Assembly: GCA_016218705.1 (NCBI GenBank)
Contig: JACRDC010000053.1
Coordinates: 1 to 64,000 of the forward strand
DNA from: Desulfarculus sp.
GTDB lineage: Bacteria > Desulfobacterota > Desulfarculia > Desulfarculales > Desulfarculaceae
Reading direction: 5' to 3'
Length of the DNA: 64,000 nucleotides
The translations under genes were made by a program, and so were the position numbers. The notes under the pieces were generated by a model. It saw only the letters and a list, made by a program, of their open reading frames with translations, was not told where the DNA came from and did no database searches. Positions 43,724-62,234 of the stretch are shown in pieces (position 1 is the first letter of the stretch; each line of letters opens with the position of its first letter).

Positions 43724-44548
43724 ATGCCAGCACAACCTGCGCCCGAACTCAGCGGACTCTTGGCGGCCCTGGGCCTGGGCGAGATGCCCCTGGGCCTGTT
43801 CTACAGCGACACCCCGCCGGCCCAGGGGCTGCGGCCCGAGCCCTTGGAGCGCCCCACCCGGGAGCGAGAGATGGCCGGGCAGATCAACTGGGGCGCGGTC
43901 TTCGGCGGCTTCTCCTGCGCCATGGGGCACATCTGGCGGGCGCGCCGCAAGCACACCGCCGCCTGGTTCAGCGCCGATCATTACGGCTGCGCCGGCGCGG
44001 CCTTCTGGCTGGGCTTCATCAAGCCCCAGACCGAGACCATCGTGCACTACGTCTCCAGCGGCATACCCGGCCACCTGGAGGGCGAGCATTACCTGGCCAC
44101 CCCCAGCCAGTGCCGGGGCCTGTTCGAGCTGGCCGACCCCCGGCCCGCCGCCCGGCCCTACCTGGTGCTAAAGCCCCTGGACCTGCTGGAACCCGGCGAG
44201 GAACCGGAGCTGGTGACCTTCTTCACGCGGCCCGAGAGCCTTACCGGCCTATTCACCCTGGCCACCTACGTCACCGGCCGGGCCGAGGCGGTGCGCGCGC
44301 CCTTCAGCGCCGCCTGCGGGGCCTTGGCCGCCTGGCCCCTGCACTACCTGGCCCAGGGCCATGACCGGGTGGCCGTGCTGGGGGGCCTGGACCCCTCGGC
44401 CCGCCAGTTCTTCCGCGCCGACGAATTATCCTTCACGGTGTCCCGCGATCTCTACGACCAGATGCTGGAGGCCTGGCCCAGGTCCTTCCTGGCCCGCAAG
44501 ACCTGGCGGGTGGTCAAGAAAAAGGCCGTTAGCCGGGAAGCCCGCTAG
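43724..44548 (+). CDS. DUF169-family protein
   Basis: 274-aa cytoplasmic protein matching the DUF169 pattern of anaerobes: an early MPLGLFYSD segment, a conserved ADHYGCAGAAFWLG cysteine/glycine motif and LAQGHDRVAVLGGLDPSAR towards the end. Start ATG with GGGAG 6 nt upstream. DUF169 proteins have no established biochemical role; conserved cysteines hint at metal or cofactor binding. It is divergently transcribed from the DUF3795 gene, a pairing worth checking in other genomes. Confidence 0.75.
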   Translation: MPAQPAPELSGLLAALGLGEMPLGLFYSDTPPAQGLRPEPLERPTREREMAGQINWGAVFGGFSCAMGHIWRARRKHTAAWFSADHYGCAGAAFWLGFIKPQTETIVHYVSSGIPGHLEGEHYLATPSQCRGLFELADPRPAARPYLVLKPLDLLEPGEEPELVTFFTRPESLTGLFTLATYVTGRAEAVRAPFSAACGALAAWPLHYLAQGHDRVAVLGGLDPSARQFFRADELSFTVSRDLYDQMLEAWPRSFLARKTWRVVKKKAVSREAR

Positions 44549-51541: not shown

Positions 51542-52687
51542 TCAGTGATGGGTCGGCCCCGGGGCGGACGGGCCGGCGAAATAGGCCCGCAGGTTGTAGA
51601 AGGCCTGGGGCGCCGACTCGCTACGCACGGGGATGGCCCGCAGGCGCCCCTGGTGGGCCAGCATCTCGTAGAGGTCGTTGACAATGGTGCCGTAGAGCTC
51701 CAGGTCCGAAGGCGACTGATAGTAGGAGGCCAAGAGGGCCTTGAAGTCGCTACCCAGATCGAAGTGGCTCAAAACCTCCAAGAGGTGCACCTCGTCGCCG
51801 GTGCCCACGTAGACCAGGTGGGGGCAGCCCGAGAGCTTTTCCACCTTGACCCCCAGGCGCAGGCTGATGAGGGCCGCGCAGTAGGGGCACTGGGCGGCGA
51901 TGACGTGGCCGCCGTGGGGGTCCACGGGGGCGTGCAGGGCCAGGTCGGCCTCGCCCAGGCCCAGCAAGGGCAGCCAGCGCTCCAACAGCCCCAGGTCGGG
52001 CCGGGCGCCGCTGACCGCCCCCACCCAACGCCGCCAGGCCTCCACCAGCACGGCGGGGGCCAGGCGCTCATCCACCCCGGCCAGGCCGGGGCCGGCGACC
52101 AGCCACAGGCGTAAAGCGTGGTCGCTGCCGAGGTCATGGGCCAGGGCCTCTTCCAGCACCTGGCCGGCCAGGGCGGCCAGGCGGGGGTCGGGCTGGTCCG
52201 GGTCCTGGCCGGCGGCCTTGAGCGCCCGGCGGCCGATGGTCTCCATCTCCTCGGCGGCGGCCTGGCGCAGGTCCAGCCCCTCGCCCAGGGCCTGGGTCAG
52301 GAAGTCCTCGGCCAACTCGAAGTCGTCGGGGTTGACCTGGCCCTGGGCCACGGCGGGCAGGGAGAAGAGCACGCGGTGGAACAACAAGGGCCGGTCGTGG
52401 CGCAGGCTGACCAGCACCTGGGCCAGCACCGGCCGGGGGTCGTCCATGGCCCACAGCCAGGCCAGGGGCGAACGGCCCTCCACCAGCTCGGGATAGATGG
52501 TCTGGCAGGTCAGGGCCGCGCGCAAGAACAGGTCCTGCATCTCGTCCTGCTCCAGGCCCAAGAGGGCGGGCTGGCCGCAGCAGAAGGCCAGCCAGTCGTG
52601 CTGGTGCAGGGGCGAGAAGAAGGCCCCCTCCAAGATGCCGTCCACCAGGGCCAGGCGGGCTTCCAGGCTTTCGGGGGTCGGGGCCAT
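51542..52687 (-). CDS. Uncharacterised 381-aa protein with CPYC motif
   Basis: Start ATG 52687 with GGAGG 6 nt upstream. The first two thirds are helical and acidic, with no known motif. The C-terminal third has AAQCPYCAALISLRLGV and LSGCPHLVYV, three cysteines that could bind a metal, and ends in a Pro-rich tail. I do not recognise the family. It is 76 nt upstream of the M42 gene and divergent (172-bp gap) from the PEP-synthase/LamG gene, so it may share regulation with the latter. Confidence 0.7.
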   Translation of the reverse strand: MAPTPESLEARLALVDGILEGAFFSPLHQHDWLAFCCGQPALLGLEQDEMQDLFLRAALTCQTIYPELVEGRSPLAWLWAMDDPRPVLAQVLVSLRHDRPLLFHRVLFSLPAVAQGQVNPDDFELAEDFLTQALGEGLDLRQAAAEEMETIGRRALKAAGQDPDQPDPRLAALAGQVLEEALAHDLGSDHALRLWLVAGPGLAGVDERLAPAVLVEAWRRWVGAVSGARPDLGLLERWLPLLGLGEADLALHAPVDPHGGHVIAAQCPYCAALISLRLGVKVEKLSGCPHLVYVGTGDEVHLLEVLSHFDLGSDFKALLASYYQSPSDLELYGTIVNDLYEMLAHQGRLRAIPVRSESAPQAFYNLRAYFAGPSAPGPTHH

Positions 52688-52859
52688 GGCGGTCCTCCGT
52701 GGCAATTGGGGCCTGCGTGCCGTTTTCTGGATGATACCACCATCGCCCGGGTGGTACACCCAGGCAGTGGCGGCCCCGCCGCCGCGATTTATGATGACTC
52801 TGCTCCCGGCCTGACCCAGAATATGGTCAACGGACCCCACAGCACCAGGAGGCCCGGCC

Positions 52860-55800
52860 ATGTCGCCCTGGCGTGACATCTTCGCCCGCAAGACCGAGTG
52901 CGTCTACCTGGCGGCCCTGCAAGGCCCCCAGGCCGAGCTCTACCGCCGCTTCAGAAACTTCCTGCGCCACAACCAGGGGGCCTTGTCGGCCATCGCCGAA
53001 CTGGAGCAGCTCTACCACGGCGGCCAGCCCTTCACCCTGGCCCGGGCCCGCGCCCTCTACGGCCGCCTGCTGGAGTCGGCTTACGGGGTGGCCTTTGCCC
53101 TGGAGGCCATGACCGGCGAGGACGCCGCGCCCTTGACGGCCCTGGTGGACAGGCTGGACCAGGCCATCTGGACCGAGTTGAACCCGGTCCTGAACCCGGC
53201 CTCCGGGGAGCTGGTCATCCCCTTCTCCCGGCTTACGGCCCAAGAGCGCGGCCTGGTGGGCGCCAAGGCCGCCAACCTGGCGGCCATGAGCAACGACCTG
53301 GGCCTGCCGGCGCCCGGCGGCTTCGCCATCACCGCGGCGGCCTTCCAACTCTTTATGGAGCACAACGGCCTGACCCAGTTGGTGGACCGGGAACTGGCCA
53401 GCCTCTCGGCCGAGGCCGGCGGCGGCCTGGAGGCGGCCAGCGGGCGCATTGCCGAGCGCATCCGGTTGCACAGCCAGGTGCCCCCCCGGTTGGCGGAGGC
53501 CATCCAGACGGCCTACGCCGAGTTGGAGGCCAGCAGCGGGCCGGGCGTGCGGGTGGCCATGCGCAGCAGCGCCATCGGCGAGGACACCGAGGCCTCCTTC
53601 GCCGGCCAGTACAGCACCGAGCTCAACGTGACCGGCGAGAACCTGCTGGCCGCCTACCAGGCGGTGCTGGCCAGCAAGTACTCGCCCCGGGCCTTGGCCT
53701 ACCGCCTGCACCGGGGCCTGGACGACCGCGAGACCCCCATGAGCGTGGCCTGCGTGGTCATGGTGGATTCCCTGGCCAGCGGGGTGATGTACACCGTGGA
53801 CCCCGCCGACCCCGCCGCCGGGGTGCTCAAGATCAACGCCATCTGGGGCCTGGGCGAGCACCTGGTGGACGGCAGCGCCTCGCCGGACGTGTTTTTGGTC
53901 TCCCGCGAGGGCGGCCAGGTGGTGGCCAGGCAGGTCAGCCGCAAGGCCACCCGGCTGGTCAACCTGCCCGGCGGCGGCATCGGCCCGGAGGCGGTGCCCC
54001 TTGGCCAGCAGGACGAGCCGGCCATCGGCGACGAGCTGGTGCTGCGGTTGGCCCGGCACGGCCTGGCCCTGGAGCGCCACTTCGGCGGCCCCCAGGACGT
54101 GGAGTGGGCCTTGGACCAACAGGGCCGGCCGCTGCTCCTGCAATGCCGGCCCCTGGAGGTGGCGGCCAAGGCCCTGGAGGAAGGCGGCCTGCCCCGCCAG
54201 TACCCCGGCCACGCCGTGCTGCTGGAGGGTGGCCGGGCGGCCTCCCAGGGGGTGGCCGTGGGGCCGGTATTCGTGGCCCAGGGCGGCGCCGGCCTGGACC
54301 AGGTGCCCAAGGGCGCCATCCTGGTGGTGCCCACGGCCTCGCCGGCCTACGCGCGCCTCATGGGGCACATCGCCGGCCTGATAAGCGCCGTGGGCAGCAC
54401 CACCAGCCACCTGGCCTCGGTGGCCCGCGAGTTCGGGGTGCCGGCCCTGGTGGACGTGGGCCCCGCCAGCGCCGGCCTGGCCGCCGGCCAGATGGTCACC
54501 CTGTGGGCCAGCGCCGGCCTGGTCTACGAGGGGGCGGTGGAGGAGCTGGTCCAGCGGGCGCGGGCGGCCAGGAACCTCATGGTGGAAAGCCCGGTGCACC
54601 GGCGGCTGCGCCGGGTGCTGGACCAGGTCTCGCCCCTGACCCTGACCGACCCCCAGGCGCCGGGCTTCAACCCCGCCGGCTGCCGCACCCTGCACGACGT
54701 GGTGCGCTACACCCACGAGCAGGCCATGCGGGGCATGTTCGGCCTGGCTCGCCTGGCCGGCGCCGGGCCGGCCACGGTGAGGCTCACCACCACGGTGCCC
54801 ATGGTGGTGGAGCTTATTGACGTGGGCGGCGGCCTGCGCCAGGGCCTGACCACCTGCGACACCATCACCGCCGGCGACCTGGAGTCCACGCCCCTGCGGG
54901 CCGTCTGGCGGGGACTGAGCCACCCCGGCATCAACTGGACCAGTACCGTGGCCCTAAGCCTGGGCAACATGCTCTCTCTCATGGCCGGCGGCGCGGCGGC
55001 CAGCGCCGATCAGGCACTGGGCACCGCCAGCTACGCGGTCATCTCCCGCGACTACCTCAACCTCAGTGCCCGCTTTGGCTACCACTTCGCCACCCTGGAC
55101 TGCCTGTGCGGCGACGACCCCGACCAGAACTACCTGTCGCTGCAGTTCGCCGGCGGTGCCGGCGACTTCCGGGGCCGCGCCCTGCGCATCCAGTTCCTGG
55201 CCAACGTCCTGGGGCGCCTGGGCCTGAGCGTTTCCCTCAAGGGCGACCTCCTGGAGGCCGGCCTGGTGGGCCAGGCCCGCCCGGCCCTGGAGGATATCCT
55301 GGACCAGGTGGGCCGGCTCCTGGGGTGCAGCCGCCTCTTGGACGTGGGCCTGGCCAACGGCGGCGACCTGGAGCGGCTGTGCCAGTCCTTCTTCCAGGGC
55401 GAGTATGACTTCCTCTCCGCCCCGCGCGGCCAGGGGCTCAAGGACTTCTACGTGCGCGTGGGCGACTGGAGTCTGGCCCAGGAGGACGGGGCGCCCTGCT
55501 ACCAACAGGACGGCAGCCGCTGGGTCACGGGGCTCTCGCGGGGGCTGGCCGGCCTGGCCACCAGGTTCGTGGGCGAGAAATACTACGAGTACCTGGACAA
55601 CGTCGAGGCCTATTTCTACTTCCCCATGATGATCCGCAAGGACAGCCGCCTGGCCAGCGGCCGGGCGGAAGTGGAGGTCAAGGCCCTGGGCGGCAGCATT
55701 GACCGGGCGGGGGGCCTGGTCTTCGGCCTCCGGGACGTGGGCAACTTCTGGGTGCTCAGGCTCAACGCCCTGGAGAACAACCTCATTCTCTTTGAATTCG

Positions 55801-56042
55801 TCAACGCCAAGCGCCATCAGCGGGCCGCCGTAAAGCTCCAGGTCAATAGCAATCAGTGGTACAAACTGGGCGTGGAGGTGCGGGGCCGTGAGATCACGGG
55901 CTTTCTAGACGGCCAACCCTGCCTGGAGTACCAGGCCCCCCAGGCCGTGGCCGGCCTCTTGGGCCTGTGGACCAAGGCCGATTCACTCACCTGCTTCCGG
56001 GGACTGACCTGGCAGGCCCTGGAGGAAGGCGGGGCGTCCTGA
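52860..56042 (+). CDS. PEP-synthase/PPDK-like protein with C-terminal LamG/concanavalin-like domain
   Basis: 1060 aa. Residues about 110-440 resemble the pyruvate/PEP-binding ATP-grasp domain of PEP synthase and PPDK (GLVGAKAANLAAM, LPAPGGFAITAAAF, MRSSAIGEDTEASFAGQYST, QDVEWALDQQGRPLLLQCRP). Residues about 470-580 match the PEP-utilising swivelling domain with His517 in GSTTSHLASVAREFGVPAL, the phospho-histidine position. Residues 600-860 are not recognised. Residues about 865-1055 form a beta-rich jelly-roll-like region (AEVEVKALGGSIDRAGGLVF, FWVLRLNALENN, WYKLGVEVRGREITGFLDGQ) like DUF1080/LamG folds. There is no C-terminal PEP-synthase barrel and no signal peptide. Start with AGGAGG 7 nt upstream. 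Confidence 0.82.
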   Translation: MSPWRDIFARKTECVYLAALQGPQAELYRRFRNFLRHNQGALSAIAELEQLYHGGQPFTLARARALYGRLLESAYGVAFALEAMTGEDAAPLTALVDRLDQAIWTELNPVLNPASGELVIPFSRLTAQERGLVGAKAANLAAMSNDLGLPAPGGFAITAAAFQLFMEHNGLTQLVDRELASLSAEAGGGLEAASGRIAERIRLHSQVPPRLAEAIQTAYAELEASSGPGVRVAMRSSAIGEDTEASFAGQYSTELNVTGENLLAAYQAVLASKYSPRALAYRLHRGLDDRETPMSVACVVMVDSLASGVMYTVDPADPAAGVLKINAIWGLGEHLVDGSASPDVFLVSREGGQVVARQVSRKATRLVNLPGGGIGPEAVPLGQQDEPAIGDELVLRLARHGLALERHFGGPQDVEWALDQQGRPLLLQCRPLEVAAKALEEGGLPRQYPGHAVLLEGGRAASQGVAVGPVFVAQGGAGLDQVPKGAILVVPTASPAYARLMGHIAGLISAVGSTTSHLASVAREFGVPALVDVGPASAGLAAGQMVTLWASAGLVYEGAVEELVQRARAARNLMVESPVHRRLRRVLDQVSPLTLTDPQAPGFNPAGCRTLHDVVRYTHEQAMRGMFGLARLAGAGPATVRLTTTVPMVVELIDVGGGLRQGLTTCDTITAGDLESTPLRAVWRGLSHPGINWTSTVALSLGNMLSLMAGGAAASADQALGTASYAVISRDYLNLSARFGYHFATLDCLCGDDPDQNYLSLQFAGGAGDFRGRALRIQFLANVLGRLGLSVSLKGDLLEAGLVGQARPALEDILDQVGRLLGCSRLLDVGLANGGDLERLCQSFFQGEYDFLSAPRGQGLKDFYVRVGDWSLAQEDGAPCYQQDGSRWVTGLSRGLAGLATRFVGEKYYEYLDNVEAYFYFPMMIRKDSRLASGRAEVEVKALGGSIDRAGGLVFGLRDVGNFWVLRLNALENNLILFEFVNAKRHQRAAVKLQVNSNQWYKLGVEVRGREITGFLDGQPCLEYQAPQAVAGLLGLWTKADSLTCFRGLTWQALEEGGAS

Positions 56043-56071: not shown

Positions 56072-58651
56072 TTATTGTCCGGCTTGTCCGGCGGGGATAC
56101 GCCGGGTCCAGTCCGAGTCGGGGAAGCGCCGCCTTAGCTCGTTCCACAGGGCCTGGGCGTCCTCCTGGCCGCCGGTGTGCTGGTGGGCCAGGGCCAGGTG
56201 GTAGATGGTCTCGGGAATCAGCACCGAGTCGGGAAAGCGCTCCCTCAAGCCCTGCAACAGCTCGGCGGCCCGCGCCCATTGCTCCTCCTGCTGGTAGGTC
56301 AGGGCCAGGTCGAACCAGGTGTAGTCGCTGGCCACGCCCTGGGGAAAGCGCCGCAGGCCCTCCTCGTAGGCCCGGCGGGCCTCGGCCAGCCGGCCCTGCT
56401 CGGCCAGCCGCCGGCCCCGGTCGCGCAGGGTGGAGCCGTCGTCGTGCGCCTGCCACAGTCCGGCCCCCAGGCCCAGCCCCACCAACCCCCAGGCCATCCA
56501 CCACCAGAACCGGTGGGGCGCGGGCGGGTTGGCCGGCGCGGCCCCGGCCAGCCAGGCCCGCCAGCTTGGCCGCCACCAGAACACCAGCAGCCCGGCCAGG
56601 CCCAAGAGGGTGGCGGCCAGGCCCAGCCAGTGGGGCCAGGCCCAGCCGAAGACCAGCGTGACCCTCTCGCTGGCCGGGAAGAGCAGCATGAAGGCCGGCG
56701 AGACCCGGTAGATCCTCTCGCCGCCCAGGCTGCGCCAGGCCGGATGATAGCTCACCCTGACCAGGAGCGGCTGGCCGGGCTCCAGGCCCTCCACCTCGAT
56801 GCGCTCGTTGGCCAGGGCCTCGGCCCGGGGCGGGGCCGCGCCTAGCGGCTGGCGGGGCAGGCGGTCCTGGCGCAGGGCCTCCAGCAGGGGTTCGTCCGGG
56901 CCGCCGCCGTCGTTCAGCGTGGCGGCGAAGAGGGCGGGGTCAATCCCTTCCAGGCTGTCCACGAAAACCAGGGGCACGCCGAGGTCGCTGAAGCGGAACC
57001 ACAGGTAGGCCAGCTCCTGGGGCCTCTGGGTCAGCACCAGGACCGGCCTGTGGGCCGGCACCACGGCGTAACGGTCCTGGTTGCCCATGACCCGGTAGAC
57101 CGAGTAGGGGCCGAAGCGGCGCTGCAAGACCAGGCCCGGCTGGTGATCGGCCTGGCGCTTGGTGGCCGCCTCCACGGCCACGTACTGGCCCACGTTGAAC
57201 AGCCGCAGGTGCTCAATACCCCGCGCCAGGTCGAAGCGGCCATAGACGTAGCCCGGCAGGGGCGTGGAGGAGCGCTGGCAGGTCTCGGATTGCAGGTAGA
57301 AGATGAAGGGAGCGCTGGGGCTGGCCTGTAGATAGGACACCTCCAGGGTGGCCCGCCCCGACCACAGGGGCAGGGTTTCCAGCGCCCGCACCGAGCCGGC
57401 GGCCTGATGAAGCATGGAGTGCTCGTAAACCACCCGGGGATCGCCGAAGTCGCCGCGCAGGAAATCGTTGACCGCCCGGAACTCCGGCCACAGGAGCTTG
57501 GTCTCGCTGCCGCTGTTGTTCCAGTGCAGCCAGCGGGGCGTCTGTTCCAGGCCCAGTCCGGACCAAAGCACCGCCGCCCCCAGAACCAGCAGGGCGGCCG
57601 CTGGCTTGGCCGCCAAGGGCCGGCACAGCCAAGCCAGGAACAGCGCGGCCAGCAGCACCACGGCCAGATAGGCAAAAGGCAGGAAGCGCACGGTTATGGT
57701 GTTCATCATGGGCGAAATTAGAAAAAGCAGGGCCGAGCACACTATCCAAAAGACCAGGAAGCCGGCCGGCTGACGCTGGCCGGTCCGGCCGGAGGCCAGG
57801 CCCAGGACCAGGCCAGCCGCCCCCAAGACAATAACCGGCAGCAGGGAGGGAGGGAAAAATTCTCGCCAGGACTCGATGACCCAGATGAAGTTGAATTTCT
57901 CGGTGTAGGGTGAATACAGGAGCATGGGCACCAGCCAATGCCCCCACAGCAGAAAGGTCAGGCCGTAAAGCATGAGCAGCCGGCGGGCGGCCAGCGTCCA
58001 TGGACGCTGGAGCAGCAGGAAATAAAGCCCCGCCACCAGGCAAAAGAGCATGGCATATGGATGGGACAGCCCGATGAGCCACAGCAGGCAGGCCTTGGCC
58101 CCCACCCCCTGGCCACGCTCAAGCCAGCGGGGCAGCAGCCCGAGATAAAGCAGGGCCAGGCAGATTCCATAGGATTGGCCGAATACGCCGATGAGCAGGG
58201 AGTTGACGCTGCCGCCCCAGATATAGCCCTGCTCCCTCAGAAGAAAGCATAGCACCAGGGATGCCGCCATGGCCGGACCGGGGAAGTCAATCTCCAGGCG
58301 GCGGGCGCACCAATAGGCGCAAAACGGCATGGCCAAGGCCGGCAGCAGGGCCACGAGCTTGAAGGCCACCGCCGGGTGCAGGACCAGGCTCATTAGGCTC
58401 ATGAGCAAAAAAGGTAGCGGAAAATAGAACTGGAAGAACGGGTACCCCGCCAAATTACCCAGGTTCCAGCCCCACAGCCGCCCCAGGGGCAGCACCTGCT
58501 CGCGCAGGAAAACGAAGGACCAGTATTGGGTGACCGTATCCCCGCCGGTGGGCGTGGTGGAGGAAAAAATCAGCCGCCAGGGCAATAGCCAGGCCACCAT
58601 GGCGGTGGCCCCGGCCACCACCGCAAGGTCTGTCAAATCCTGCCTGGTCAT
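56072..58651 (-). CDS. Polytopic membrane protein (PTPS-related/GT-C-like) with C-terminal TPR
   Basis: 859 aa. About ten or more transmembrane helices in the first 370 residues, with acidic/aromatic loops such as TPTGGDTVTQYWSFVFLREQ, resemble the 6-pyruvoyl-tetrahydropterin-synthase-related membrane family, which is close to lipid-linked GT-C glycosyltransferases. A soluble extracytoplasmic part (about 380-660) is followed by two more helices and then TPR-like repeats (about 735-855, LAEARRAYEEGLRRFPQG). Its ATG overlaps the upstream gene's stop by 4 nt. Being last in the surface operon, it may glycosylate or assemble an exported product; this role is inference. Confidence 0.75.
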   Translation of the reverse strand: MTRQDLTDLAVVAGATAMVAWLLPWRLIFSSTTPTGGDTVTQYWSFVFLREQVLPLGRLWGWNLGNLAGYPFFQFYFPLPFLLMSLMSLVLHPAVAFKLVALLPALAMPFCAYWCARRLEIDFPGPAMAASLVLCFLLREQGYIWGGSVNSLLIGVFGQSYGICLALLYLGLLPRWLERGQGVGAKACLLWLIGLSHPYAMLFCLVAGLYFLLLQRPWTLAARRLLMLYGLTFLLWGHWLVPMLLYSPYTEKFNFIWVIESWREFFPPSLLPVIVLGAAGLVLGLASGRTGQRQPAGFLVFWIVCSALLFLISPMMNTITVRFLPFAYLAVVLLAALFLAWLCRPLAAKPAAALLVLGAAVLWSGLGLEQTPRWLHWNNSGSETKLLWPEFRAVNDFLRGDFGDPRVVYEHSMLHQAAGSVRALETLPLWSGRATLEVSYLQASPSAPFIFYLQSETCQRSSTPLPGYVYGRFDLARGIEHLRLFNVGQYVAVEAATKRQADHQPGLVLQRRFGPYSVYRVMGNQDRYAVVPAHRPVLVLTQRPQELAYLWFRFSDLGVPLVFVDSLEGIDPALFAATLNDGGGPDEPLLEALRQDRLPRQPLGAAPPRAEALANERIEVEGLEPGQPLLVRVSYHPAWRSLGGERIYRVSPAFMLLFPASERVTLVFGWAWPHWLGLAATLLGLAGLLVFWWRPSWRAWLAGAAPANPPAPHRFWWWMAWGLVGLGLGAGLWQAHDDGSTLRDRGRRLAEQGRLAEARRAYEEGLRRFPQGVASDYTWFDLALTYQQEEQWARAAELLQGLRERFPDSVLIPETIYHLALAHQHTGGQEDAQALWNELRRRFPDSDWTRRIPAGQAGQ

Positions 58652-59517: not shown

Positions 59518-60477
59518 CTAGATTGACGTGGAGGTACTGGTGGTGGTGGTCGTCGTCGTGGTGGTCGGGTGGGTGGTCGGGTGGGTGGTCGTGGTGGTGG
59601 ATGGGGTTGGGGCGGGCCTGGCTGTAGTGGTGGTGGTGGTTGTGGTGGTCGTGGTGGTGGTAGTGGTGGTCGTGGTGGGCTTGGCCGTGGTGCTGGTGGT
59701 GGTGCTGGTGGTGGTGGTCGTGGTGGTGGTGGCCTCGCCGGGGCGCCCCTGCTGGCCCAGGGAGCGCAGCTCACCCAAGGGGGCCAGGCCCGGCGGCAGC
59801 ACCACGCCCAGCTTGAAAAGGTCGCGCAGGAACTGCTCTTCCTGGGGCGTGGGCGGACGCGGCGTGGTGGGCGGCTCGCCCAGCACCACATAGGTCAGGT
59901 TGTTGCTGCCCACGACGACCTGCAGCCCCAAATCTTGCAGGTTGGCCACCCACACCGGGTTGTCCAGGCCCAGAACCAAGGACTGCTCGGGCGAGAGCAC
60001 CACCACCAACAGATTGGTGCCGCGCACGCCGGCCACGGCCGTGGGGGTGCGGATCTGCACGCCACCCTTGTAGTCCAACAGGTCGTTTATCATCAGCTTC
60101 ACCTTGCCCGCGGGCAGGTGCAGCTTCACCTGGCGCTCCTTGTCCTCTTCGGAGTAGGAGCACTGGTCAATCTCCAGGGTGGAGTCCTCGCCCACCCGCG
60201 CCAGGGAATCATCGCTGAGCACCAGCTTGGCCTGGCTGCCGGGGCCGGTGACGATCTGGTCGCCGGCCAGCAGGACCATATCCTTGCTGGCGGCCAGGTC
60301 GCGCTTGAGGGCCGGGTTGATAACCCGCACCTGGCCCGAAAGATCAAAGATGCGCCCCGCCGGCTGGGCCTGTTGGGCATGGCCCCAGCCCGGCCAGGCC
60401 AAGAGGACCCAGGCCAGCAGGAAGGCAACCAAGAGGTTCGGCGTAAGGCGTATGCCTCGTGGCGTGGTGGCGGCCAT
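59518..60477 (-). CDS. FecR-domain protein with long poly-threonine C-terminal tail
   Basis: 319 aa. After a signal peptide (LLVAFLLAWVLLAWPGWGHA) comes a FecR-type periplasmic domain (AGDQIVTGPGSQAKLVLSDD, KLHLPAGKVKLMI, VQIRTPTAVAGVRGTN). This is followed by a Pro-rich linker and a tail of about 70 residues made mostly of threonine with Ser, Pro, His and Ala (from about residue 248). No FecI sigma factor is adjacent; FecR domains of this stand-alone, exported kind occur in surface and adhesin-linked proteins. Start 60477 with GGAG 8 nt upstream and only 1 nt after the barrel gene's stop. The tail may be O-glycosylated or act as a flexible surface spacer. Confidence 0.82.
   Translation of the reverse strand: MAATTPRGIRLTPNLLVAFLLAWVLLAWPGWGHAQQAQPAGRIFDLSGQVRVINPALKRDLAASKDMVLLAGDQIVTGPGSQAKLVLSDDSLARVGEDSTLEIDQCSYSEEDKERQVKLHLPAGKVKLMINDLLDYKGGVQIRTPTAVAGVRGTNLLVVVLSPEQSLVLGLDNPVWVANLQDLGLQVVVGSNNLTYVVLGEPPTTPRPPTPQEEQFLRDLFKLGVVLPPGLAPLGELRSLGQQGRPGEATTTTTTTTSTTTSTTAKPTTTTTTTTTTTTTTTTTTARPAPTPSTTTTTHPTTHPTTTTTTTTTSTSTSI
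59521..59735. repeat. ACC/GGT trinucleotide low-complexity tract
   Basis: This is the coding DNA for the poly-threonine tail: dozens of ACC/ACG codons in runs interrupted by Ser, Pro and His codons. Length change by slippage would be in steps of three and stay in frame. The antisense reading gives a spurious poly-valine frame. Confidence 0.9.
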
Positions 60478-60478
60478 G

Positions 60479-62074
60479 CTAAAAACTCCACACCAGCATG
60501 AGCATCACGGTGTTCTTCTTGAAGTCATAGGGGTCGAAGCCGGTGCCGTCCTGCACGTTGGAGTCGTTGAAGGTATGGAAATATCCCAGCACCACCTGCC
60601 ATTGCTCGGCGGGGCGGTAGAACAGTTGCACGGCGGCCTGGTACTGGTGGTCGCGCCGGTCCACCAGACTGCCACCCCGGCCCACCAGGTAGGGGTCCAC
60701 CCGCCGGTCGAAGGCATAGCGCAGATAGGTGCCCGATACGTCCAGGCTCAGGCCCTTGGCCAGGGGCACGGCCCCGCCCAGGGTCACCTCCCAGTTGAAA
60801 TAGCCGCTGACCTCGTCGCTGGCCAGGTCCTGGCTGAGGGCGTAGCCCAGGCGCAGGTGGGGCAGCAGGCGGGGGTCGCGGGAGAGGAAATGGGTCAGCG
60901 CCAGGCGCCAACGCCAGTAGTCCGGCTCGCCATTTGGTAGATAGTGCCGGTGCTGCACCAGGCCATGGGCCTCGCTGCGCAGTTGAGGTGTGTGCTGCCA
61001 GCGGAAACTGGGGGCTATGGCGTTGTTTTGCACCTTGCGGGACAGGTTGGCCTGGGCCCAGTAGTAGCTGAAGTCATAGGGCAGGCGCAGGCCCCAGCCC
61101 TGGCCCGACAGGTCCAGGTAGCCGCCCAGGGACCAGGCGGCGTAGCTGGCGTCGCGCAGGCTGGAGTAGCCCAGGTACTGGGCCTGGCCGCGCAGGCCCC
61201 AGGTCAGGCCCTCGCGCCGGCCCAGCTCGTATTGCAGGTCCTGCCTCAGGTAGTAGGACATGTCGCCGCGCTTGCGGGTGGGTTGTGCCCCGGGGTAGCT
61301 TTGCAGGGGGTCGCGGAAGACGTTGTCCTCGTACTGGGTAAAGAACGTGGTGTAGGCCCGCCAGGGCCGGGCCGCCCGTTGGGCCCCGGCCACCGCCTTG
61401 CGCAGGGATTCGATGTCCTGGGCCTCCAGGGGCGTGGGGTGGGCCATGAGAGCCTTTTTCAGGGCCTCCTGGGCGGCGGGGTATTCCTTATTGAGGAACA
61501 GGGCCTGGCCCATCAGGTACCAGGTGCCGGCTGACTGCTGGTCCAGGCGGCGGAAGGCGGTCAGGGCCTGCTCGGGCTGCTTCATCATCAGGTAGGTGTT
61601 GCCCTGCTCGCGGATGGCCCGCTGGCGGTCCACCTTCTCGGCGTGGCGGAAGTGCACCAGGGCCTTGTCGTACTGCTTCTCCTGCACCCTGATGTAGCCG
61701 GCCTCGAAGCGCAGATAGGCAAAGGCCCCGGCGTCCCTGGCCCACAGGGAGCGCAGGTACTCCAGGGCCTTTTCACCGCCTTGGCCTTGGCGCAGGGCCT
61801 GCACCTTCATTTGGACAAGCTCGTGGTTGTCGGGCTGGAGGGCCAGGGCCTGGTTCAAGAGTTCCAGGGCGGCCGGGTAGTCGTCGTCCAGCAGGGCGAA
61901 GCGGGCCTGGGTGCGCAACTCGGCCAGGCCGGGGCCGGCCGCCGGGGCTGGAGGGGCCAGGGAGCACAGGACGGCCAGGCAGAGCACCAAAGCGGCCCAG
62001 CGCCACCAGTGGCGCCATGCCCGGAGCGCCGGCTGGGGCTGGCCGGCTTGGCGTGATATTTTTCGGCAGCCCAT
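60479..62074 (-). CDS. TPR-containing outer-membrane beta-barrel protein
   Basis: 531 aa. After a signal peptide (WAALVLCLAVLCSLAPPAPA) are several TPR motifs (about 50-260, e.g. YPAALELLNQALALQPDNHE, QYDKALVHFRHAEKVDRQRA). A region of alternating aromatic strands then follows (about 270-531) and ends in a C-terminal phenylalanine (MLMLVWSF), the classic outer-membrane barrel signal. The arrangement resembles surface lipoprotein assembly modifier (Slam)/DUF560-like proteins, which export surface proteins, but similarity to those is only architectural. The ATG at 62074 is chosen (GGGGA upstream); 62092 is an alternative. First gene of the surface operon, 1 nt before the FecR gene. Confidence 0.78.
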   Translation of the reverse strand: MGCRKISRQAGQPQPALRAWRHWWRWAALVLCLAVLCSLAPPAPAAGPGLAELRTQARFALLDDDYPAALELLNQALALQPDNHELVQMKVQALRQGQGGEKALEYLRSLWARDAGAFAYLRFEAGYIRVQEKQYDKALVHFRHAEKVDRQRAIREQGNTYLMMKQPEQALTAFRRLDQQSAGTWYLMGQALFLNKEYPAAQEALKKALMAHPTPLEAQDIESLRKAVAGAQRAARPWRAYTTFFTQYEDNVFRDPLQSYPGAQPTRKRGDMSYYLRQDLQYELGRREGLTWGLRGQAQYLGYSSLRDASYAAWSLGGYLDLSGQGWGLRLPYDFSYYWAQANLSRKVQNNAIAPSFRWQHTPQLRSEAHGLVQHRHYLPNGEPDYWRWRLALTHFLSRDPRLLPHLRLGYALSQDLASDEVSGYFNWEVTLGGAVPLAKGLSLDVSGTYLRYAFDRRVDPYLVGRGGSLVDRRDHQYQAAVQLFYRPAEQWQVVLGYFHTFNDSNVQDGTGFDPYDFKKNTVMLMLVWSF

Positions 62075-62234
62075 GGGCGCGGTCCCCGCCATAAGCCGTG
62101 GCCAAGGCAAATCATCCACCCCCGCTGTGGTTATTAGCACAGATCAGTGGCCGGGCGCCATTAATTTTGACGGTGGCTGTGGCGGGACCCCACCCCGCAA
62201 AGCTAGCGCTTTGTGGGGACCTCGGTTTTTGCAC

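Follow-up and report, generated by a model that had tools for sequence, protein, structure and literature searches.

The gene at positions 52860 to 56042 of the window (the whole 64,000-nucleotide stretch of Desulfarculus sp. DNA that was analyzed) encodes a 1060-residue protein in which PPDK-type kinase modules are joined to a new middle domain and to a lectin-like domain. We give about even credence to its being an active phosphotransferase of PPDK type whose acceptor domain is new and which has a role in oxyanion (chromate-type) stress or transport. The fusion of a dikinase with a lectin domain related to chromate-operon proteins suggests an uncharacterized phosphorylation step in the handling of toxic oxyanions, and it connects two sets of genes that have so far been unexplained: the PPDK-like proteins without a barrel in sulfate reducers, including one tied to nitrate sensitivity, and the lectin-like accessory genes of chr operons.

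Domain organization and kinase half

The gene and its parts, together with the divergent neighbor that shares its 170-bp upstream intergenic region, are as follows.

52860 to 56042, + strand: whole gene, ATG start, 1060-aa PPDK-type phosphotransferase (predicted) with ConA-like domain
52847 to 52852, + strand: AGGAGG ribosome-binding site, 7 bases 5' of the ATG (direct reading of the sequence)
52926 to 53180, + strand: N-terminal helical domain, residues 23-107 (AlphaFold secondary structure)
53214 to 54170, + strand: ATP-grasp nucleotide-binding domain, residues 119-437 (Pfam PF01326, alignment with 2ols, Foldseek)
54222 to 54539, + strand: swivelling phosphohistidine domain, residues 455-560 (Pfam PF00391, alignment with PEP synthase)
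54408 to 54410, + strand: codon of His517, the predicted phosphate-carrying histidine (aligned with the PEP synthase phosphohistidine)
54567 to 55409, + strand: new middle alpha/beta domain, residues 570-850 (AlphaFold)
55431 to 56024, + strand: C-terminal ConA-like beta-sandwich, residues 858-1055 (fold and homology to chr-operon proteins)
51542 to 52690, - strand: divergent 382-aa protein, no Pfam match

A Pfam scan assigned residues 132-439 to PPDK_N (E 2e-84) and residues 483-553 to PEP-utilizers (E 2e-16), whereas the PEP-utilizers_C barrel had no match in the protein. Residues K136, R235, E415, Q428, R430, and His517 are invariant across 75 homologues, E241 also being listed among the invariant ATP-grasp residues. 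The former six align with catalytic residues of solved PEP synthases, whose roles in PPDK and PEP synthase we take to be those commonly assigned. In an AlphaFold model of the whole protein built from 75 sequences (pLDDT 86, pTM 0.77), the front half matched PEP synthase and rifampin phosphotransferase by Foldseek. As shown by this conservation, the apparatus for phosphate transfer from ATP to His517 is intact. Thus, the ATP-binding and swivelling-histidine modules that had been recognized from the sequence alone are confirmed by Pfam and by invariance among the homologues, and so is the absence of a PEP/pyruvate barrel, given the missing PEP-utilizers_C match and a middle-domain model that is not a barrel.

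Because the barrel is absent, the protein is not a PEP synthase proper. PpsA-type enzymes (e.g. Neisseria meningitidis 2ols) share the order of ATP-grasp followed by swivelling phosphohistidine domain, at ~30% identity and with the catalytic residues retained; however, the window protein has an unrelated conserved domain replacing the PEP/pyruvate barrel, as well as additional N-terminal helical and C-terminal ConA-like domains. The helical domain is common to the whole family, whose members align from residue 28. Near the hydrophilic N-terminus, the highest hydropathy over 19 residues is 0.31, which bears out the earlier statement that a signal peptide is lacking.

A middle domain in the place of the barrel

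The middle region, which the sequence-only reading had left unassigned, is a conserved alpha/beta domain. Modelled alone with AlphaFold from 74 sequences (pLDDT 86.6), residues 570-850 did not form the PEP-synthase barrel that had been named beforehand as a possible refutation. No sequence-profile match was found in Pfam or PDB, and a Foldseek search with the model gave no PDB fold match at E<=0.001; the best value, E 0.034 with query TM-scores of ~0.2, was treated as noise. Seven residues (H612, D613, H619, H742, R776, D796, and D828) are invariant across the 74 sequences.

This previously undescribed domain occupies the place of the PEP-making barrel. Since it follows the histidine domain, just as the acceptor barrel does in PEP synthase, and carries invariant polar residues, we infer for it the role of acceptor domain, and it is the likely substrate site for the entire enzyme family. 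We know of no enzyme activity for any protein with this domain, nor did our literature search yield a report of one. A conserved and well-modelled domain without a solved counterpart makes the question of the substrate directly testable.

A C-terminal domain related to chromate-operon proteins

As a single sequence, the C-terminus matched 3keto-disac_hyd below threshold (E 0.0006, 20.3 bits versus a cut-off of 26.8). A profile of 10 members of the C-terminal domain found the CBM66 of Bacillus subtilis levanase (4azz, E 1.6e-6), all 10 matched PF06439 weakly to moderately, and the best solved match of the modelled C-terminus in Foldseek was CBM66 4b1m (TM 0.85). Since profile and model both point to a CBM66-type fold, the beta-sandwich of DUF1080/LamG type proposed from the sequence was correct. 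Activity as a 3-keto-disaccharide hydrolase (PF06439) or other glycosidase, being below the curated cut-off, is without support. Fructan specificity is likewise unsupported because, although the sandwich resembles that of the levanase module (4b1m), the residues at the aligned positions differ and are not conserved in the family. Invariant in the family are instead R967, N969, E972, N974, W1037, K1039, D1041, and S1042, and the sandwich contains a helical insert of 30 residues (889-919).

By itself, the C-terminal domain exists in many genomes as an exported protein of ~200-280 aa. The best plasmid matches of the window domain lie in or beside chr operons or, in a single instance, next to a chrL-type DUF1259 gene. 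In Cupriavidus metallidurans, the exported lectin-like gene follows chrB, chrA, SOD, chrE, and a gene for a ChrB-domain protein; further chr-operon relatives are found on plasmids of Cupriavidus USMAA2-4, Sphingopyxis, Methylobacterium, Burkholderia vietnamiensis, and Pedobacter, and a Nocardia relative adjoins a DUF1259 gene (LppY/LpqO, called chrL in Arthrobacter; PMC2751784). The window domain and the C. metallidurans copy are 36% identical over 135 aa (pairwise E 3e-24), and an alignment with the exported chr-operon homologues retains 18 invariant residues, including the shared motifs R-x-N-x-L-E-x-N and W-x-K-x-D-S. From this homology, the C-terminal domain appears to descend from an exported lectin-like protein of chr operons.

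In the literature found, such a gene is recorded only as cep, encoding an exported ConA-like protein in the chr operon of Cupriavidus STM 6070 (PMC7060636). In strain CH34, chrO to chrZ are enigmatic chromate-induced genes directly downstream of chrF (PMC2864759), and its position suggests that the lectin-like C. metallidurans gene is chrO. The ChrO/cep-type protein and the window domain are homologous, with the same invariant residues, but the former is short, exported, and located in a chrB/chrA operon, whereas the latter is part of a cytoplasmic kinase whose N-terminus is hydrophilic, and its gene lies outside such an operon, unlike 8 of 23 fused relatives.

A second exported type, associated with an ABC ATPase and an ABC-2 permease, occurs near the C. 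metallidurans chr operon and at L159, L160, L163, and L177; it is the closest relative of the fused domain and shares the helical insert. The cassette, made up of genes for an ABC ATPase, an ABC-2 (GldF-like) permease, and the exported lectin-like protein (L195:2793-5603, L159:3213-6095, L160:507-3492, L163:7512-10402, and L177), is conserved and is located close to chr operons both in C. metallidurans and in Desulfobacterota. To our knowledge, it has not been described as a unit.

Family and single origin of the fusion

Residues 28-850 define a large family of lectin-less proteins, mostly from Desulfobacterota with some from Acidobacteriota and other groups, and the genome of the window itself encodes two lectin-less paralogues of ~870 aa. 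The helical, ATP-grasp, histidine, and middle domains are all shared, with 32-39% identity over ~820 residues between the window protein and the lectin-less homologues, including both paralogues. A search of representative genomes returned 184 relatives, and ~10 of the 80 that were fetched carry the lectin, 3 of them in Nitrospirota; a phylum sample provided about a dozen further fused genes.

In a tree of 90 sequences, from which the lectin columns were absent because columns were kept only if filled in 30% of rows, the 24 fused sequences formed one clade with a support of 100, spanning Desulfobacterota and Nitrospirota and having the lectin-less L043, L044, and L112 as its sister. A recent chance fusion or assembly artefact is ruled out by this single clade across two phyla, and the simplest reading of the tree is that the fusion would have arisen once and then been kept. 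Two or even three members of the lectin-less 870-aa family frequently lie together, in tandem or inverted (L074, L104, L055, L050, L086, and L062), which hints at hetero-oligomers.

Genomic context of fused and lectin-less genes

We compared the neighborhoods of the two forms in draft genomes. A TauE/SafE permease gene lies near 41 of 71 lectin-less loci, which also have histidine kinases and response regulators, versus none of 23 fused loci (Fisher p 2e-7), whereas chrA and/or chrB is found near 8 of 23 fused and 2 of 71 lectin-less loci (Fisher p 1.4e-4); both tests treat the loci as independent, which is true only in part. The eight chr-linked fused loci (L036, L037, L040, L148, L149, L150, L156, and L159) come from 6 of 21 genomes, three of them from a single genome (G177). 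About two thirds of the fused loci have no chr gene within the available flanks, which are short. As ChrB is present in only 23 of the 297 genomes of the phylum sample, a chance neighborhood would be expected at ~0.0004 per locus.

Pfam confirmed ChrA, ChrB_N/C, MFS, multihaem cytochrome, DUF1259 (LppY/LpqO), and ABC-2 permeases at these loci. The gene order at L156 is chrB, chrB-C, MFS, multihaem cytochrome, porin-like, fused gene, chrA, and at L159 it is chrB, chrB-C, MFS, ABC ATPase, ABC-2 permease, exported lectin, fused gene. At L037:3375-3920, a second lectin domain of the stand-alone type is located between the fused gene and chrA.

Phosphatase genes are further neighbors. A PP2C gene adjoins the fused gene at L036 and L040 and lies 3 kb away at L154, a dual-specificity phosphatase (DSP) gene adjoins it at L038 (overlapping its start), L146, and L147, and both kinds adjoin the sister genes L043 and L044. 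An LMW phosphatase/ArsC-like gene adjoining L035 was excluded from the count, as phosphatase and arsenate reductase are ambiguous here. Beside the window gene, there are no chr, tauE, or phosphatase genes; in its own genome, chrB and chrA are located on other contigs.

A nitrate cluster of Desulfovibrio contains DVU0246/Dde_0604, annotated with both PPDK modules, next to TauE, a PtxB-like binding protein, a histidine kinase, a response regulator, and a dual-specificity phosphatase, and transposon mutants of this cluster, one of them in DVU0246, grow at inhibitory nitrate concentrations (PMC4001038). Its annotation and gene context suggest that DVU0246 belongs to the lectin-less type, whose TauE, histidine kinase, and response regulator neighbors it shares; in contrast, the fused relatives carry the lectin and, where chr genes are nearby, have a chr context in place of TauE.

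Possible functions

We propose that the protein is a cytoplasmic enzyme in which the ATP-grasp domain would place a phosphate on His517 of the swivelling domain, from which it would pass to an acceptor held by the middle domain. The C-terminal domain is most likely a ligand-binding or docking module, because of the 18 invariant residues common to the exported homologues: it would probably bind the ligand of these relatives or dock the enzyme on a partner. The enzyme would probably help the cell to respond to or transport chromate-, sulfate-, or nitrate-type oxyanions. Its product would be either a phosphorylated regulatory protein (VadK-like) or a phosphorylated small molecule; judging from the neighboring genes, the partner phosphatases encoded beside fused genes probably reverse this phosphorylation.

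The sequence-only reading had favored phosphorylation of a cytoplasmic carbohydrate or glycan precursor, for which we found no specific support: the kinase core and middle domain mostly occur without the lectin, beside TauE and two-component systems. The nearest kin of the lectin domain are exported chromate-operon proteins, not sugar enzymes. Plant glucan, water dikinase (GWD) likewise joins a CBM to a PPDK-type kinase, and one can imagine an analogue in which the lectin-like domain would hold a glycan or polymer, the kinase would phosphorylate it, and a DSP would reverse the reaction as SEX4 or laforin does. The CBM66/ConA-like fold and the DSP genes adjoining L038, L146, L147, L043, and L044 fit such a scheme, and the trio of CBM, PPDK-type kinase, and dual-specificity phosphatase is a suggestive parallel. 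We nevertheless consider it very unlikely, as most family members keep the acceptor domain but lack the lectin, the CBM66 residues differ at aligned positions, PP2C rather than DSP is the partner at other loci, and genes for making or breaking down glycans did not recur among the neighbors of the fused gene.

Other PPDK descendants have also lost PEP synthesis, namely rifampin phosphotransferase (RPH), HpeHI, and VadK, but they have other substrate domains and no lectin. HpeHI and RPH, barrel-less relatives, use small molecules as phosphate acceptors (PMC12167813, PMC4844700), and the invariant polar cluster of the middle domain would fit a small pocket, so the window protein could be a small-molecule dikinase that detoxifies or activates a cytoplasmic compound bound by that domain. 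This reading is unlikely in our view: neither sequence nor fold searches relate the middle domain to the RIF-binding domain, the domain order of RPH differs, and the neighboring genes encode regulators, transporters, and protein phosphatases, not the steps of a catabolic pathway. Membership of the rifampin-phosphotransferase family itself is ruled out by the domain order and the missing substrate domain; the Pfam scan places the histidine domain directly after the ATP-grasp domain, with no RIF-binding-like domain between them, and the protein scores 231 against a cut-off of 999 with the NCBIfam model. VadK of Mycobacterium tuberculosis, a PPDK descendant turned regulatory kinase that does not synthesize PEP, autophosphorylates and binds enzymes (PMC13400623). 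By this precedent, and given the histidine kinases and response regulators adjoining lectin-less relatives, the protein might be regulatory only, autophosphorylating on His517 and signaling by interaction with no separate chemical product, but the strongly conserved His/Asp/Arg set of the middle domain suggests an acceptor site over a docking surface and makes this quite unlikely.

Against the oxyanion role that we prefer stand the lack of chr neighbors at the window gene and, within the available flanks, at about two thirds of the fused loci, as well as the origin of three of the eight chr-linked loci in one genome; the chr genes may also be the sign of a stress island of general kind and not point to the substrate. 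In a more specific and tentative version of the oxyanion role, fused proteins would be the kinase half of a novel type of phosphorylation switch in oxyanion stress, in which the ChrO-like domain would tether or gate the PPDK-derived kinase with its new acceptor domain and a component of a chromate/sulfate-type transport system would be phosphorylated, reversibly by a cognate PP2C or DSP.

Other genes in the window

The window neighbors were discarded as candidate partners in function: the divergent gene lacks any Pfam match and is conserved in the sister genome only. Its 382-aa product (51542-52690, -) contains paired cysteines (CPYC). PADLOC gave no match for anti-phage defence. By eye, the gene at 59518-62140 (-) encodes a secreted, FecR-like protein that has a long tail of low complexity, rich in Thr; it adjoins genes for a TPR/outer-membrane-type protein and a large TPR membrane protein (56072-58651), a group with the look of a cell-surface cluster. 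A DUF169-like protein, assigned to this family by eye, is encoded at 43724-44548 (+) and also found at L060; a DUF169 gene, Dde_0597, is part of the nitrate cluster of Desulfovibrio alaskensis.
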